In this document: positions 25,669 to 36,371 of the stretch, in pieces
How positions within the stretch are numbered: position 1 is the stretch's first letter
How the letters are laid out: each line of letters begins with the position of its first letter
Source of the DNA: Armatimonadota bacterium
GTDB lineage: Bacteria; Armatimonadota; Fimbriimonadia; Fimbriimonadales; Fimbriimonadaceae
Assembly: GCA_016223145.1 (NCBI GenBank)
Contig: JACRPN010000008.1
Span: 236,103-300,102, forward strand
Length of the DNA: 64,000 nucleotides
Reading direction: 5' to 3'
Notes under the pieces: generated by a model
Databases searched by the model: none
Seen by the model: the letters and a program-made list of their open reading frames with translations, nothing else
Told to the model about the DNA's origin: nothing
Translations under genes and position numbers: made by a program

Positions 25669-28600
25669 CTACTCCCGCTTGCGGAACAGGACGTGCATGC
25701 CAAGGTCGCCGAACGCCTCGCTCTTTTCCGGTCCAGGCTCTTGGCCACCCTTTCCACGCCGAGTCCGGCGCCTGCGCCGGCTGACCCGGGCTTCGGCTTC
25801 TGGCTCGTCCTCTGCGCCGTCGTCGCCGTCCGAGTCCACGAATTTGGGCCTCAGCAGCCACTCATCGCTCGCGTCTTCCGGAACGCCACCCTCGATGAAC
25901 TCATCGAGCTGGACGATCGGCACGTCGAGCGCCGAAAGGTCTTGTCGGACGGTGTTGTCCGTACGCGGGGGCAACTCGGAGATGGTCTCCAGACTGCTTA
26001 CGTCGCAGTTGAGCAGCGCCTCGATTTCGTGCCGCGCCCCAACGAAGAACTGGTGTGTCGCGCCGTCAAGCGCGGTGAATCGAAGGCTGGAGGAATCAAC
26101 CGCCGACCAAGAGTCTGCGAGAACGTCGTAGGCCGACCAGTTGTTGGGCAGCATGATCGTCCGCGAGCCCGCGTTTGCGGTGTGGACCGAGAGGAAAGGG
26201 GGCCTGGCGTGAACCACGTCGTCCTGATAGTTCCAGACGTGGGCCCCTGCCAGTTGGCCCAGGGCGCGGATGAGCGCGGGGGTCACCACCGGCTCGCCAA
26301 GAAAGACCGACTTCCAGTCCAGATAGGGGTCGGTCTCATCCCGGACCTCTTTGTAGACGAAGCTGGGAAGACCGGTGTGGGTGTATTCGCCGAGAACCGT
26401 TGAGCCTTCAGGAATTGCGAAGTAGCTGGGTTCCAGCTTGCCGCCACCGATGGACCCGACCCCGGCGAACGCCTCGCAGAGCGGGTGCTTTCGGTTCAGG
26501 ATGGTGGTGCCCGTGCGGCTGTGGAAAGGCTGGGGCTTGATGGCGATGCCCATGACTTCGCGAGCGCGCTCAAGAGCCTCTCGGCCGGCATCGAACAGCC
26601 CGCCGCAATAGAGCCAGAAGAGCACCTTGCCGTCCCTTTGGAGGCGTGAGCGGATCGCTGACCGATGTTCGGGGCGCATGTCCCAGGCGTTGATGAAGAT
26701 GTTGAGGCGAGTCTCCGGGAACGACTCGCGGTGGGCCAGATCGCTGAGCAGATAGAACCCCGCGCTGAGGCCGGAGCGAAGCACGGATTCGCGGACGTTC
26801 TGCACCAGCAACGCGAACGAGTTCTCATCCACGAGATAGGCAAGGGCGCGCTCGTCGATAAAGACGGCGACGTCCGGGTCTTTCAGGTTCGTGGACATGC
26901 GCCGAAGCAGCAGGTCCCGCGCTTTGGCGCCGCGCTGCCAGATTCCGGGCGTCTTCAGCCAGCCGTTGCCCCAAAGGTCCATCCAGGAGACGCCGCTGGC
27001 GTGCGCCAAAGCCGCGCCGATGCCGCGCCAGTGGACGCTCTCCAGGGCCTGGGGAGTCTTGATCTTGGGGTTGAAATCGTCGGGCTCAAAGGTCTCGGCG
27101 ATCGAGGTCTTGTAGTCCTCTTCGGAGAGGTAGAGTTTGCCGTTGAGCGGGAAGCTGTCGATCGGGGAAGGAAACGGCGCGGTGCCCTTGGGCTCGCGGT
27201 TTCGGTAGCTAGGGGGGCCCGCGATGAAGTCGATTTCGGGGGTACGGAGCAGCTTGCCGAGCGAGAGATGCCCGCTGAACGGGTGCGACCATTCGAAGGT
27301 GTAGCCGTAGTTGGTGCCGACCACCAAGTACCCTTCGCTGGCTTCCTTGACGGTGTAGGCGAGGTCGCTGATGAGGTGCGCGGTGGCGTCGCTAAGGAAG
27401 AGGTGGTAGTCCACCCACCTGCGTTCCTTGCGGCTGACGCGCATGAACTTGCCGCCCTCTTCGCCGCTGCGTTTGAATTCGGGGATCGTCAAGTTGTCGA
27501 AGGTGACATTGCCGTCAAACCACGCTGCCCGCAGCGCGACAACGTCGTTCAGGTAGCGCATTCGAGCCCAGGATCGGAACGCCTGTACGGCGGCTCGGGA
27601 GTTGTCGTATCCGACGTCGCTGGGAAGGAACCACTCGCCTCGCTCGATTTGAACGCCGAACACGTGGTTTCTGCTTTCCAGCATTCTCAGCCGGGCGACG
27701 AAGTCCGCAAGGCAAGTCTTGGCTTCGCCCCAGTACGGCTCCGAGCACACGCTTGGGTCCATGATTCGGCCCGCGCCGTCGTGGAAGACCGCGTCCGGGT
27801 ACTTCTTGTCCCAACCCCGCGGCGCGAGGAGCACCAGCCCCAGCAGAACTTGAGCTTCAGGATCCACTTCGACGGCCTTTGCCACCATATAGGCCGCGAA
27901 GCCAAGGCTCGAAGAGACGGATTGCTGGTCGATCTCGAATTCCAGCAAGATCGCATGAAGATGAATGCCCGCATCCGACGCAAGGCGAATCTCCTGGAGC
28001 ACCGTTTCGGCGCGGCGCTCGTCCGGCGCGCTCCCAAAGAAGCTGATCGGCGGATACACGCGCCCTGCTCGAACGAACGCAGGCGTTCCGTTGAGCATCG
28101 CTACCTGCGGCGCATCTTCGGGTGTTGGGATGATCGGCTTGTGAACGACCGGGGGAAGCGGCGGGATGAGCTCGACGGCCGGCTCGGGTTCGGGTTCCCT
28201 GGCGGGCCTGGCGCGTCTGGACTTCCTTGAGGACTCCGTCTCGAGGGCGTCCGCTGCGGTGATGGGAGCTTCCTCTTCGTCTCGGCCGCGGCCACGGCGT
28301 CTCGATCGGCGGGGCGCCAGGTCGGGCTCGTCCGCGGAAGCCGCATCCTCAAGTTGGCTGGGCTTTGCAGGCTTCAGGGGCTTCGAGGGGGACCGGAATT
28401 CGGCGACCGGCATGTCAGACTCTTTCACCGAAGTCACAAACGGCTCCCAGGACTTGGCCGGGGCATCTTCGGTCGAATCCGCGTACTGCCGCGAGCCTCT
28501 GCCCCTATCTGGGCCTCGGCGCTTGCCTCGGTTTCCTTCCTCGGGGGCTGTTGCGGGTGCAGGGGCCACTTCCGTTCGCGCGTCGCCTCGGCTCCGGAAG

Positions 28601-28815
28601 GTGGCTTTCGGGCGATCCTCGGCCTCTGCCGGCGTTAGGACGTTGGCAGGCTTCGACTCCTTGGGGATGCGGCCGCGCCTGGGGGGCTTTTCGGCTTGGG
28701 GCGGCTCTGCTGCCGGGGAATCCTGCTTCTTTCGGAACCGGGCTTTGGGGGCTGTGGCTACGGTGGGTTCGACGATGGGTTCAACTTCTGCGGGTGGGCT
28801 TTTTCTTCTTGCCAT
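25669..28815 (-). CDS. GH42-like protein with Arg-rich disordered tails
   Basis: A 1048-residue protein, start ATG 28815 (MARRKSPPAEVEP). The first ~240 residues are disordered and strongly basic, with RGR-type stretches (GKRRGPDRGRGSR, RRSRRRGRGRDEEE). Residues ~250-620 look like a GH42-type (beta-alpha)8 barrel (AYMVAKAVEVDPEAQVLLGL, HVFGVQIERGEWF, then RAAVQAFRSWARMRYLNDVV). The usual GH42 acid/base motif NE after GxQI is IERGEW here, so it is degenerate. A glutamine-amidotransferase-like fold follows (MRPEHRSAIRSRLQRDGKV, WLYCGGLFD), as in beta-galactosidases. The C-terminus is again basic (SRRRRRTRRGKGG). There is no signal peptide; it is likely cytoplasmic. It is in one operon with era. 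Function unknown, possibly nucleic-acid linked. Confidence 0.7.
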   Translation of the reverse strand: MARRKSPPAEVEPIVEPTVATAPKARFRKKQDSPAAEPPQAEKPPRRGRIPKESKPANVLTPAEAEDRPKATFRSRGDARTEVAPAPATAPEEGNRGKRRGPDRGRGSRQYADSTEDAPAKSWEPFVTSVKESDMPVAEFRSPSKPLKPAKPSQLEDAASADEPDLAPRRSRRRGRGRDEEEAPITAADALETESSRKSRRARPAREPEPEPAVELIPPLPPVVHKPIIPTPEDAPQVAMLNGTPAFVRAGRVYPPISFFGSAPDERRAETVLQEIRLASDAGIHLHAILLEFEIDQQSVSSSLGFAAYMVAKAVEVDPEAQVLLGLVLLAPRGWDKKYPDAVFHDGAGRIMDPSVCSEPYWGEAKTCLADFVARLRMLESRNHVFGVQIERGEWFLPSDVGYDNSRAAVQAFRSWARMRYLNDVVALRAAWFDGNVTFDNLTIPEFKRSGEEGGKFMRVSRKERRWVDYHLFLSDATAHLISDLAYTVKEASEGYLVVGTNYGYTFEWSHPFSGHLSLGKLLRTPEIDFIAGPPSYRNREPKGTAPFPSPIDSFPLNGKLYLSEEDYKTSIAETFEPDDFNPKIKTPQALESVHWRGIGAALAHASGVSWMDLWGNGWLKTPGIWQRGAKARDLLLRRMSTNLKDPDVAVFIDERALAYLVDENSFALLVQNVRESVLRSGLSAGFYLLSDLAHRESFPETRLNIFINAWDMRPEHRSAIRSRLQRDGKVLFWLYCGGLFDAGREALERAREVMGIAIKPQPFHSRTGTTILNRKHPLCEAFAGVGSIGGGKLEPSYFAIPEGSTVLGEYTHTGLPSFVYKEVRDETDPYLDWKSVFLGEPVVTPALIRALGQLAGAHVWNYQDDVVHARPPFLSVHTANAGSRTIMLPNNWSAYDVLADSWSAVDSSSLRFTALDGATHQFFVGARHEIEALLNCDVSSLETISELPPRTDNTVRQDLSALDVPIVQLDEFIEGGVPEDASDEWLLRPKFVDSDGDDGAEDEPEAEARVSRRRRRTRRGKGGQEPGPEKSEAFGDLGMHVLFRKRE

Positions 28816-29155
28816 TTTTTGCCGTTCTCGACTCGCCTCAGCGCTAGCTTTCGGGGCAGACGGCCGTCTCGGACACACTCGGCCTGGCCCACCGTCTCAG
28901 ATAGCGCGGTGCGGGCGCGATAGATTATTAATTCGTGGGTCCTCGGCGCAGCGAACCTGGAGGCTTGCTCTCCTCAGGATCGCCTCGCGCGAAGAAACTT
29001 GGGTCAGAGTATGGCAGATTTGCCGTCACCCAAGAGCTTTTTGACTTGGGAACGCGATCTGGCGCGTCGCCCAGATGGGTTCAAAACCCCGCTAAAGGAC
29101 CAGGCCCCCTCTGCCGACGATAGGAATAGCCCACCTAATTGGAGGCCAAACACCT
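28816..29155. other. divergent intergenic region of the GH42-like/era and hook operons
   Basis: 340 bp between two divergent transcripts. It holds the sigma-28-like element described at 29093-29120 on the plus side. An AT-rich patch (GATTATTAATTCG at about 28922-28935) may be the promoter for the minus-strand operon. I see no further gene; a short plus-strand frame from 28999 reads through the FliK start and is not supported. Confidence 0.45.
29093..29120 (+). promoter_or_regulatory. sigma-28-like (FliA) promoter of the hook operon
   Basis: TAAAGGAC ... GCCGACGA, with 16 bp between TAAA and GCCG, matches the flagellar sigma-28 consensus TAAA-N15-GCCGATAA except for one extra base of spacing and two mismatches. 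It lies 36 bp upstream of the fliK start and in the correct orientation. Confidence 0.45.
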
Positions 29156-31501: not shown

Positions 31502-31556
31502 GATGAGCGCTTTCACGTGGTCGGGAAACGGTGTGCGGTGCACGCTGGGTGTCTCG

Positions 31557-31750
31557 CGGTGTTCCGCGAGTGACTCAGCGCCCACGCTGAACGACTCACG
31601 GTGTTCCGCGAACGACTCAGCGCCCCCGCTGAACGACTCACGGTGTTCCGCGAACGACTCAGCGCCCACGCTGAACGACTCACGGTGTTCCGCGAGTGAC
31701 TCAGCGCCCACGCTGAATGACCCAGCGCCCCCGCTGACTGACTCAGCCCT
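31557..31750. repeat. 42-bp minisatellite in the hook operon
   Basis: Four copies of a 42-bp unit begin at 31557, 31599, 31641 and 31683, and a shortened fifth follows. Each begins CGGTGTTCCGCGARTGACTC and contains the palindrome TCAGCG-CCCM-CGCTGA. Differences between copies are few (AGTGA/AACGA and CCCAC/CCCCC). Because 42 is a multiple of three, the region is open in several frames on both strands, so openness is not evidence of coding. The array separates the TIGR02530-type gene from flgE. Confidence 0.8.
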
Positions 31751-33901: not shown

Positions 33902-34294
33902 TTGACTAAAGAGCAGTTGAAGGATAGAACCAAGGCATTTGCCATCGAGGTGGTCGCGCTCGTTCGGGACTTGCCACCCGAGGTGGTCAACGACGTCATT
34001 GGGAAGCAGCTCCTGCGCTCCGGGACGTCGGTTGCCGCGAACTACCGAGCGGTTTGTCGCGCCAAGAGCAGAGCCGACGCGATCCCGAAGTTCGGTACTG
34101 TGGAGGAAGAGGCAGGCGAATCGATGTTTTGGCTTGAATTGCTCATGGACACGGGTTGTGATGACCCGCGCGTCGAGCAGCTTTGGAAGGAAGGCAACGA
34201 ACTCCTTTCTATCTCGGTGGCCAGTATCAAGACGATGAAAGCTCGGTCTTCTGGCCAATCCGAAATCCGCAATCCCCAATCCGAAATCGTATGA
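33902..34294 (+). CDS. four-helix-bundle protein (23S rRNA IVP type)
   Basis: A 130-residue protein of the four-helix bundle family first seen in intervening sequences of 23S rRNA. Fingerprint: FAIEVVALVRDLPPEV, then GKQLLRSGTSVAANYRAVCR, and KFGTVEEEAGESMFWLELLM. I start it at TTG 33902 (MTKEQLKDRTKAF). The last 12 residues (QSEIRNPQSEIV) are encoded by the right inverted repeat and are not part of the family fold. The stop overlaps the next gene's ATG by 4 bp. No 23S rRNA is near. The molecular function is unknown. Confidence 0.85.
   Translation: MTKEQLKDRTKAFAIEVVALVRDLPPEVVNDVIGKQLLRSGTSVAANYRAVCRAKSRADAIPKFGTVEEEAGESMFWLELLMDTGCDDPRVEQLWKEGNELLSISVASIKTMKARSSGQSEIRNPQSEIV
34257..34288. 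repeat. right inverted repeat of the IVP element
   Basis: AATCCGAAATCCGCAATCCC then CAATCCGAAATC, near-perfect reverse complement of 33764-33795 (two mismatches, at the mirrored T/G positions). It ends 2 bp before the ATG of the quinate-dehydrogenase-like gene and encodes the last residues of the IVP protein. Confidence 0.75.
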
Positions 34295-35196
34295 AGCACG
34301 TCGTATCCATCTCGTTGGGGTCGAGTAAGGGCAACAAGTCCCACGTCGCCGAGATTTTCGGTGAAGAGTTCAAGATTGAGCGCATCGGTACGGACGGCGA
34401 CCTGAAGAAGTTCGCCCAGATGTTCAAGGACTTGGACGGCAAGGTGGACGCTATCGGCGTCGGCGGGGCGGACATTTACGTCGTCGTCGACAAGAAGCGC
34501 TACGCTTTCCGCCAGATTCAGAGCATTGTGTCCGCGTGTAAGACGACCCCCGTCGTAGACGGCTCGGGACTCAAACACACCCTTGAACGAGAAACGGTCT
34601 ATCGCCTGCAGCGGGAAGGGACGGTGGACTTCAAGAAGGAGCGCGTGCTGCTGGTGTCGGCCGTGGACCGCTTCGGAATGGCGCAGGCCCTCGCCGAACT
34701 TTGTCCCAACGTCGTGTATGGTGACCTCATGTTCGCCATCGGCCTGCCTATTCGCATCCGCAGCTACCGAGCAGTCCGGATTATCGGGGCGCTGTCTCTG
34801 CCCATCATCACCAAGCTGCCCTTCAAGTGGTTCTATCCGACGGGCGAGAAGCAGGACGTGCGAAAGCCCAAGTTCGGGTGGGCGTTCGACGAAGCGACCT
34901 TCATCTGCGGCGACACGCACTTCATCAAGCGCAGCGCGCCGGACAAGCTCCCCGGGAAGACCATCCTGACCCAAACCCTGAGGAAGGCCACTATAGACTG
35001 GTTCCGCTCCACGGGGCTGAAACGCATTATCACCACTACACCGGTCATGGGCGGCGAGACGTTTGCCACCAACGTGATGGAGGCGGTGCTGGTAGCCGCA
35101 CTTGGCAAAAGGCCCGAGGAGATGACCGAAGCCGACTATTTGGGCGCTCTTGAGCGACTCGAATGGAAACCTGGCGTATTAGAACTGGAGGCTTGA
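34291..35196 (+). CDS. quinate 5-dehydrogenase-like protein
   Basis: A 301-residue protein that I match from memory to proteins named quinate 5-dehydrogenase: the start MKHVVSISLGSSKGNKSHVA, then FGEEFKIERIGTDGDLKKFA and VDGSGLKHTLERETV, VYGDLMFAIGLPIRIRS, and TTTPVMGGETFATNVMEAVL. The database name implies NAD(P)-dependent oxidation of quinate, but I know of no biochemical proof and see no standard Rossmann GxGxxG. It is cytoplasmic. The gene begins inside the right inverted repeat region and precedes the AAR-like gene by 104 bp. The pair looks like a metabolic unit. Confidence 0.65.
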   Translation: MKHVVSISLGSSKGNKSHVAEIFGEEFKIERIGTDGDLKKFAQMFKDLDGKVDAIGVGGADIYVVVDKKRYAFRQIQSIVSACKTTPVVDGSGLKHTLERETVYRLQREGTVDFKKERVLLVSAVDRFGMAQALAELCPNVVYGDLMFAIGLPIRIRSYRAVRIIGALSLPIITKLPFKWFYPTGEKQDVRKPKFGWAFDEATFICGDTHFIKRSAPDKLPGKTILTQTLRKATIDWFRSTGLKRIITTTPVMGGETFATNVMEAVLVAALGKRPEEMTEADYLGALERLEWKPGVLELEA

Positions 35197-35300
35197 GCAT
35201 TGGGTATCGTCTCGGAGGCATCAAACGCTCCCGGAAGGGCCCAGCGCCATGCCTTCAATCTTCAGGCTCCGCCACCCAACCTGACAGGAACACAACGACC

Positions 35301-36371
35301 TTGACGCAATTTGCGTTTATCCTCCACCCCCTAAGGGCGCGCGACGCTGCCCGCAAGTATCCCATCGCCAAGTACTTGCCCGAATCCTGGGTCGAAGCCA
35401 TCATCGCCAAGAAGCGGCCCATGGTGCTCAGCGAGATCAAGGGCATCCGTTCGGTTCATGGAGAAGAGACCTCCGGGTGGTTCATCGGGTTGCCGCTCAC
35501 GCCCCGTCAGCTGACGCAGACGCTTCCGGTGGAGTTCGTCTATTCGCGGCTGCTCGAGTGTTGCCAGTTGGCCGGTGCCGAGGGCGCCAAAGTGATCGGC
35601 CTGGGCGCGTTTACGGCCGTGGCGGGCGATGCCGGGGTGACCCTGGCCCAACGGTCTCCAATCGCAGTGACCACCGGCAACAGCTACACGGTCGCTACGG
35701 CCATCGAGGGCGCGCTGAAGGCGTGCACTTTGCTTGAGATCGTGCCGGAGCGGTCATCGCTGGCGGTGGTGGGCGCGACGGGTTCCATCGGCAAGACTTG
35801 CGCCCACGTGCTCGGGCGAAGCTTCGGGCGCACGATCTTGATCGGCAGGGACCTCGACCGCACCAAAGCCGTCGCGGAGACGCTTAGAGGCGCCGAGGCC
35901 ACGACCGACCTCAACCGTCTGCGGGAAGCCGATTGTGTGGTGACGGTGACTTCCAGCGACGCGGCGATCATTCTGCCCCAGCACCTGAGGCCCGGCAGTG
36001 TGATTTGCGACGTGGCGCGGCCCCGGGACGTTTCCTGCCGGGTGGCGAACGAAAGGCCGGACGTGCTGGTGATCGAGGGCGGGCTGGTCGAGGTGCCCGG
36101 CGACGTGAACTTCGGGATGAACTTCGGTCTCGAACCCAAGACAGCCTATGCCTGCATGGCGGAGACCATCATGCTGGCGCTGGAAAACCGCGCCGAGAGT
36201 TACAGCCTTGGAAAGGATGTCACGGTAGAACAGGTGGACGAGACCCAGCGCTGGGCACAGAAACACGGCTTTCGGCTGGCCGGCTTTCGGTCGTTCGAGA
36301 CTGCCGTGAGCACGGAGTCGATCGAGCGTGCGCGCAAGGCGCGCCTCGCCCTGCAAGCACAAGGCGCATAG
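35301..36371 (+). CDS. acyl-ACP reductase (AAR)-like / shikimate-dehydrogenase-fold protein
   Basis: A 356-residue Rossmann-fold protein. The dinucleotide site is VVGATGSIGKTCAH (about residues 157-170). The order of conserved parts, GAKVIGLGAFTAVAGDA, TTGNSYTVATAIEGALKA, SVICDVARPRDV and EGGLVEVPGDVNFG, follows cyanobacterial long-chain acyl-ACP reductase. The residues TAYACMAETIMLALE carry a Cys at position 285, aligned with the AAR catalytic Cys. I start at TTG 35301 with AGGA 10 bp upstream; a longer start at 35163 overlaps the previous gene and adds unlikely sequence. It may make fatty aldehydes, but no aldehyde deformylating oxygenase is nearby. Confidence 0.7.
   Translation: MTQFAFILHPLRARDAARKYPIAKYLPESWVEAIIAKKRPMVLSEIKGIRSVHGEETSGWFIGLPLTPRQLTQTLPVEFVYSRLLECCQLAGAEGAKVIGLGAFTAVAGDAGVTLAQRSPIAVTTGNSYTVATAIEGALKACTLLEIVPERSSLAVVGATGSIGKTCAHVLGRSFGRTILIGRDLDRTKAVAETLRGAEATTDLNRLREADCVVTVTSSDAAIILPQHLRPGSVICDVARPRDVSCRVANERPDVLVIEGGLVEVPGDVNFGMNFGLEPKTAYACMAETIMLALENRAESYSLGKDVTVEQVDETQRWAQKHGFRLAGFRSFETAVSTESIERARKARLALQAQGA

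Follow-up and report, generated by a model that had tools for sequence, protein, structure and literature searches.

A probable stand-alone thioester reductase and its conserved, uncurated neighbour in the Armatimonadota

Acyl-ACP reductases (AARs) are familiar from alkanes and pigments. A locus in a 64,000-nucleotide stretch of DNA from an Armatimonadota bacterium, here termed the window, raises the question of what such a reductase may do in the core metabolism of a whole phylum that has no alkane enzyme. It also raises the question of what is contributed by the adjoining protein, which is conserved and uncurated and probably has the same fold without the catalytic parts. Two genes occupy positions 34291-36371, side by side as the preliminary description had it, and both lie on the + strand. 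The downstream gene (gene 2) probably reduces fatty-acid thioesters to aldehydes, in nearly every Armatimonadota genome, and the upstream gene (gene 1) may cooperate with it in the synthesis of an unusual membrane lipid. The chemistry of gene 2 is ordinary and its setting is unexpected. Gene 1 is the real novelty of the pair, as its core family has no curated name. The features are as follows.

34291..35196, + strand: gene 1 (ATG at 34291, stop codon ending at 35196; 301 aa)
34642..34677, + strand: gene 1 residues 118-129, RVLLVSAVDRFG, presumed site of the Rossmann glycine loop, in degenerate form
35065..35082, + strand: gene 1 residues 259-264, ATNVME, candidate match to the helix of the AAR catalytic Cys
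35197..35300, + strand: gap between gene 1 and gene 2, 104 nt
35301..36371, + strand: gene 2 (TTG start, 356 aa), predicted stand-alone thioester (acyl-ACP/CoA) reductase of the AAR/PigE-N type
35772..35792, + strand: gene 2 dinucleotide loop, G158-ATGSI-G164 (GATGSIG), from alignments
36153..36155, + strand: codon of gene 2 Cys285, predicted acyl-accepting nucleophile (AAR Cys294), from alignment

The longest open reading frame over gene 2 runs from 35163 (402 aa) and begins within gene 1. The start is likely the TTG at 35301, because homologues begin at MTxFAF. A simple scan of the 104-nt gap between the two genes revealed no terminator-like or promoter-like site.

At the level of curated families, Pfam sees mainly the Rossmann part of gene 2 (PF01488, E 6e-9). 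The best NCBIfam match is the PigE model NF053554 (E 9e-57), which covers the reductase part only and scores 193 bits against a cut-off of 850. The AAR model TIGR04058 follows with E 1.8e-24 and 86.7 bits, below its curated cut-off of 449.7. Sequence comparison with the PDB gives the same order, with PigE (4ppm) at 1.6e-36 and AAR (6jzq) at 2.9e-17. Gene 2 had been described as acyl-ACP-reductase-like; an acyl-thioester reductase is well supported, but the nearest curated family is PigE and not AAR, and gene 2 is not an orthologue of the cyanobacterial enzyme.

Both catalytic signatures that were read from the sequence at the outset hold up. The NADP Rossmann site is kept, in that GATGSIG matches the dinucleotide loop given for AAR, 162-GATGDIG-168 (PMC7089970). 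Deep alignments of genes 1 and 2 were restricted to matches with at least 200 aligned residues and at least 250 aa, and for gene 2 the 90 rows fell to 85 when exact duplicates were removed (80 from Armatimonadota and five reductase domains from Proteobacteria plasmids). G158 and G161 are present in 85/85 rows, and G164 in 83/85 (80/80 in Armatimonadota). The Cys is residue 285 when counted from the TTG at 35301. In phmmer alignments it falls opposite the Cys residues of AAR (6jzq) and PigE (4ppm), and it is invariant in 31/31 and in 85/85 aligned sequences.

The likely cofactor of gene 2 is NADPH, because the arginines of AAR that hold the phosphate have basic counterparts. In AAR, R189, R193 and R314 are described as surrounding the extra phosphate of NADPH (PMC7089970). 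Their counterparts, as read off the phmmer alignment, are R183 (78 of the 80 Armatimonadota rows), R187 (60, with 13 more having K) and K305 (all 80). R187 is not fully conserved, and therefore use of NADH is possible, as in TamH.

The AlphaFold2 model of gene 2 (pLDDT 88) matches AAR over nearly its whole length (6jzq_B, Z 32.4 over 326 aa, rmsd 3.1, 24% identity), and the next unrelated fold is AroE at Z 13.7. Judged by sequence and model, gene 2 is thus a predicted stand-alone thioester reductase of the AAR/PigE/TamH kind.

Both genes belong to the core of the phylum. Gene 1 is found in 273 of 291 Armatimonadota genomes (192 of the 194 good ones). Gene 2 is found in 274 (190 of the good ones), a count that includes a few weak matches near E 1e-4. 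Only gene 2 is present in one genome (G085), and only gene 1 in three others (G100, G125 and G271). Thus neither gene strictly needs the other, unless these cases reflect assembly gaps.

Gene order was assessed in the best 80 gene 1 loci. In 43, gene 2 comes directly downstream on the same strand; the two genes are separated by 13-137 nt in 41 of these and by 553 and 1215 nt in the other two. Gene 2 is located elsewhere in 31, and six loci at contig ends cannot be judged. The adjacency counts use these 80 loci only, two further sets of 20 regions having been picked with contig positions known. Across 120 loci in all, some of which duplicate one contig, the order dusB-gene 1-gene 2 occurs 12 times (six with coaX), coaX-dusB-gene 1 three times and dusB-gene 2 three times. 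The full coaX-dusB-gene 1-gene 2 order is present in deep lineages. The simplest history is an ancestral coaX-dusB-gene 1-gene 2 block that was broken up later. According to the preliminary description, a link between the two genes would fail if they were always apart; the pairing is instead conserved and apparently ancestral, yet not universal.

The wider neighbourhood points to no obvious pathway. The window has flagellar, ridA, 23S_rRNA_IVP, HEAT, LemA and purL-type genes around the pair. The gene for the four-helix 23S_rRNA_IVP protein (PF05635; 33902-34294) separates ridA from gene 1, whose start it overlaps by 4 nt. In 43 of the 120 loci ridA is the nearest searched gene upstream of gene 1. 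In 20 loci the only consistent partner of gene 2 is dusB/coaX, and when the N-termini of its neighbours there were inspected by eye, neither an aminotransferase nor an acyl carrier protein was seen to recur. In locus L176 (3312-4193), a divergent version of gene 1 with 39% identity precedes gene 2 by a few genes, and a protein encoded between the two looks like a transporter. In another genome (G028), a 1027-aa open reading frame lies beside gene 2 (L169, 2614-5694), and its first residues resemble what we take to be the start of a Cas9 RuvC domain.

Two other features of the window were observed. A tandem array at 31553-31747, with a 42-base unit in 4.0 copies and a 93% match (also readable as units of 21 and 84 bases), follows flgD-type flagellar genes and is open in more than one frame. 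A 1069-aa open reading frame on the - strand (25669-28878) has no Pfam matches. In relatives, an upstream open reading frame on the opposite strand recurs that is likened to it by size alone.

Outside the phylum, Proteobacteria plasmids (H1-H16) carry reductase domains related to gene 2, mostly in annotated class III aminotransferases. In two of six plasmid records examined (L179-L184), methyltransferase and acyl carrier protein genes adjoin the reductase-domain gene, and one of these two also has a PigD-annotated gene. Gene 1 has no match in the plasmids.

The absence of a deformylating oxygenase (ADO), first noted for this locus, holds phylum-wide: PF11266 is found in none of the 291 genomes, with Synechococcus elongatus positive as a control. 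Alkanes formed by the ADO route are therefore unlikely and were rejected as the product, and the suggestion that the aldehyde serves a purpose other than alkanes is well supported.

Gene 1 is a different matter. It has no Pfam or NCBIfam match at E values up to 1, PF01488 included, and its best sequence match to solved structures (E 0.026) is chance-like. Its family, as seen in alignments, is uncurated and highly conserved. In the deep alignment, reduced from 124 to 111 rows (query included) by removal of exact duplicates, conservation reaches 97% or more in 55 columns, among them D90, K95, E99, D126, R127, D145, D208, T260, N261 and E264. The family has no conserved Cys, the most frequent occurrence in any column being 38 of 111. 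A GxxGxxG loop is absent, and SAVDRFG stands at that place with the first two Gly missing. D126, R127 and G129 in this degenerate loop region are each present in 111/111 rows, as are T260, N261 and E264 of the ATNVME segment. Conservation of this kind points to a functional site, for binding or for catalysis, and not to a copy in decay.

The model of gene 1 (pLDDT 93.4, pTM 0.90) probably has a two-domain fold like that of AAR and of the carmabin TAD reductase domain. In VIA-align, AAR and TAD entries fill ranks 1-9 with Z 12.9-14.6, over about 250 residues and with rmsd 4.3-4.8. The best is AAR (Z 14.6), and the first unrelated fold is malic enzyme (Z 10.0). In Foldseek, TAD is at the top and AAR chains are mixed with numerous folds of sugar-binding proteins and dehydrogenases. 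The 50 VIA-align matches listed do not include AroE, which by itself excludes nothing, and a viral structure library gave no useful match. The predicted fold says 'acyl reductase', whereas the residues argue against that mechanism.

The order of secondary structure elements in the two models suggests a parallel layout, in which VDAIGVGGADIY of gene 1 would correspond to AKVIGLGAFTAV of gene 2, PVVDGSG to AVTTGNS and RVLLVSAVDRFG to LAVVGATGSIG and to the AAR loop. The ATNVME helix would fall near the ACMAE helix of gene 2; its register against the AAR Cys helix may be off by a few residues. Gene 1 has no counterpart of the helices at the N terminus of gene 2. Profile-profile comparison by hhalign did not detect kinship between the two with either the first or the deeper alignments, which are shallow profiles (Neff about 2-4). 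With secondary structure included, hhalign follows nearly the same collinear path, with a total score that is not above reversed controls; the secondary-structure score in one setting is 18.6, against 10.4 and 13.0 for reversed controls.

The activity, substrate, physical partnership and pathway proposed for the pair are extrapolated from these observations. The favoured reading, held with moderate confidence, is that gene 2 is a thioester reductase that forms a fatty aldehyde and gene 1 its Cys-less partner or next-step enzyme, both in core metabolism and not in alkane formation. By analogy with the known chemistry of AAR, acyl-ACP or acyl-CoA would hand its acyl group to Cys285 of gene 2, hydride would come from a dinucleotide bound at GATGSIG, probably NADPH, and the fatty aldehyde would leave through a tunnel. 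Gene 1 would be barred from this chemistry because it has neither the Cys nor a canonical NAD(P) loop. It keeps many invariant polar residues, and its most likely role is alongside gene 2, perhaps as a partner subunit, as a protein that handles ACP or the aldehyde, or as the enzyme of the next step. A publication on the pair was not found in the literature searched.

A second explanation, possible if rather unlikely, accepts gene 2 as a thioester reductase and treats gene 1 as an unrelated housekeeping enzyme that acts on a substrate of its own and belongs to the wider amino-acid-dehydrogenase-like superfamily; their proximity would merely reflect survival of the coaX-dusB-gene 1-gene 2 block. 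Consistent with this are the 31 loci where the genes are apart, with gene 1 partly by ridA or dusB, the lack of detectable profile kinship, and the stronger conservation of gene 1 (55 columns at 97% or more, versus 40 in gene 2). However, order, strand and a mostly short gap are kept in 43 of the 80 loci, in distant families as well, and the gene 1 model is nearer to AAR and TAD than to the other solved folds listed.

The substrate of gene 2 may also be questioned. On a further reading, which appears doubtful, it would be a small or specialised thioester, as for the N-terminal domain of PigE, instead of a long-chain acyl-ACP, and the aldehyde would go to a dedicated metabolite. The nearest curated family is indeed PigE, and the plasmid relatives are fused to class III aminotransferases, with an annotated acyl carrier protein gene adjoining in two of six. 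A single core gene throughout a phylum, however, is more in keeping with the metabolism of membrane lipids or cofactors than with a secondary metabolite, and the gene 2 model also matches an AAR chain with bound stearoyl, 6jzy (Z 30.9 over 322 aa). That gene 1 is a quinate/shikimate 5-dehydrogenase, as its database label and the first description of the locus had it, is highly improbable and has no functional support: its model has the two-domain layout of the superfamily, and a Deinococcus/Thermus core family linked to gene 1 by label alone bears the name in one published account (PMC9425974), but gene 1 matches neither PF01488 nor any other model, its glycine loop is degenerate, and its nearest solved folds are AAR and TAD.

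If the pair makes a fatty aldehyde for core metabolism, as favoured here, a membrane lipid is one conceivable destination. Tentatively, genes 1 and 2 might be the missing first step in synthesis of N-glyceroyl-alkylamine phosphoglycolipids common to Armatimonadota and Deinococcota, although this is unlikely on present indications. Gene 2, together with gene 1 as an obligate Cys-less partner of AAR fold or as an aldehyde-handling enzyme, would form a long-chain aldehyde. A class III aminotransferase of the PatA/PigE type would convert it to a fatty amine, to be amide-linked to glyceric acid. The chemistry of PigE and TamH would thus be split over separate core genes and would build a membrane lipid. 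The proposal is attractive, and draws on a shared name, a weak control match and a second-hand lipid assignment.

The genome of the window has a class III aminotransferase (G000:C13:175576-176826), which among named families scores highest with putrescine aminotransferase (460.6 bits) and PigE (428.3 bits), both under the cut-off. Relatives at E 1e-120 or better occur in 136 of 151 genomes and in 113 of the 116 good ones. Its neighbours are mraW/mraZ, homocysteine methyltransferase, DUF1800, gidB and leuS, which is not a lipid cluster. This argument is weakened by the ubiquity of class III aminotransferases and by the PigE model matching in 14 of 14 control genomes. The AAR model matches weakly in Thermus composti and Deinobacterium among 14 controls, but also in Methanocaldococcus.

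The lipid diacylglycerophospho-(N-acetylglucosaminyl)-N-glyceroyl alkylamine is reported from Thermus and Meiothermus, and a related lipid from Deinococcus (PMC3035268; PMC3398001). A hot-spring study assigns a phospho(N-acetyl)glycosaminyl lipid class to Thermus/Meiothermus and Chthonomonadales (PMC4318418), an assignment that the study rests on Yang 2006 and Lee 2011. The structure of the alkylamine lipid dates from 1985 (work of Anderson and Hansen that PMC3398001 cites). If the proposal is true, a lipid known since then gains candidate genes, which are open to knock-out and lipid analysis in Deinococcus or Thermus.

Four known systems may be compared. The family deino9.00587 of Deinococcus and Thermus is likened to the gene 1 family by description alone, through the label 'quinate 5-dehydrogenase'. 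A variability survey describes it as core in 33 genomes, slowly evolving and in no CDD family, and notes its occurrence outside Deinococcus, in Thermus and further bacteria (PMC9425974). The carmabin TAD reductase domain (PDB 9e4u), part of an assembly-line protein going by the title and numbering of the entry, is the second-best fold for gene 2 (Z 31.4) and for gene 1 (Z 12.9-13.2). Cyanobacterial AAR (6JZQ/6JZU/6JZY; TIGR04058), in which the acyl group is described as transferred to Cys294 and then reduced (PMC9743570), resembles gene 2 in its whole-length fold, in the equivalence of Cys294 and Cys285 and in the dinucleotide loop. Unlike AAR, gene 2 is far under the TIGR04058 cut-off and has no ADO partner in the 291 genomes. 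In PigE and TamH, the aldehyde is converted to an amine by a class III aminotransferase. Reduction of a thioester to the aldehyde is supported for PigE (PMC8341465) and shown for TamH, reported as NADH-specific and accepting acyl-ACP (PMC9594044). This PigE-N/TamH thioester reductase domain is the best curated match of gene 2, with the catalytic Cys and GxxGxxG in common. Unlike PigE, gene 2 is unfused to an aminotransferase, lies outside any pigment cluster and belongs to the core of a phylum.
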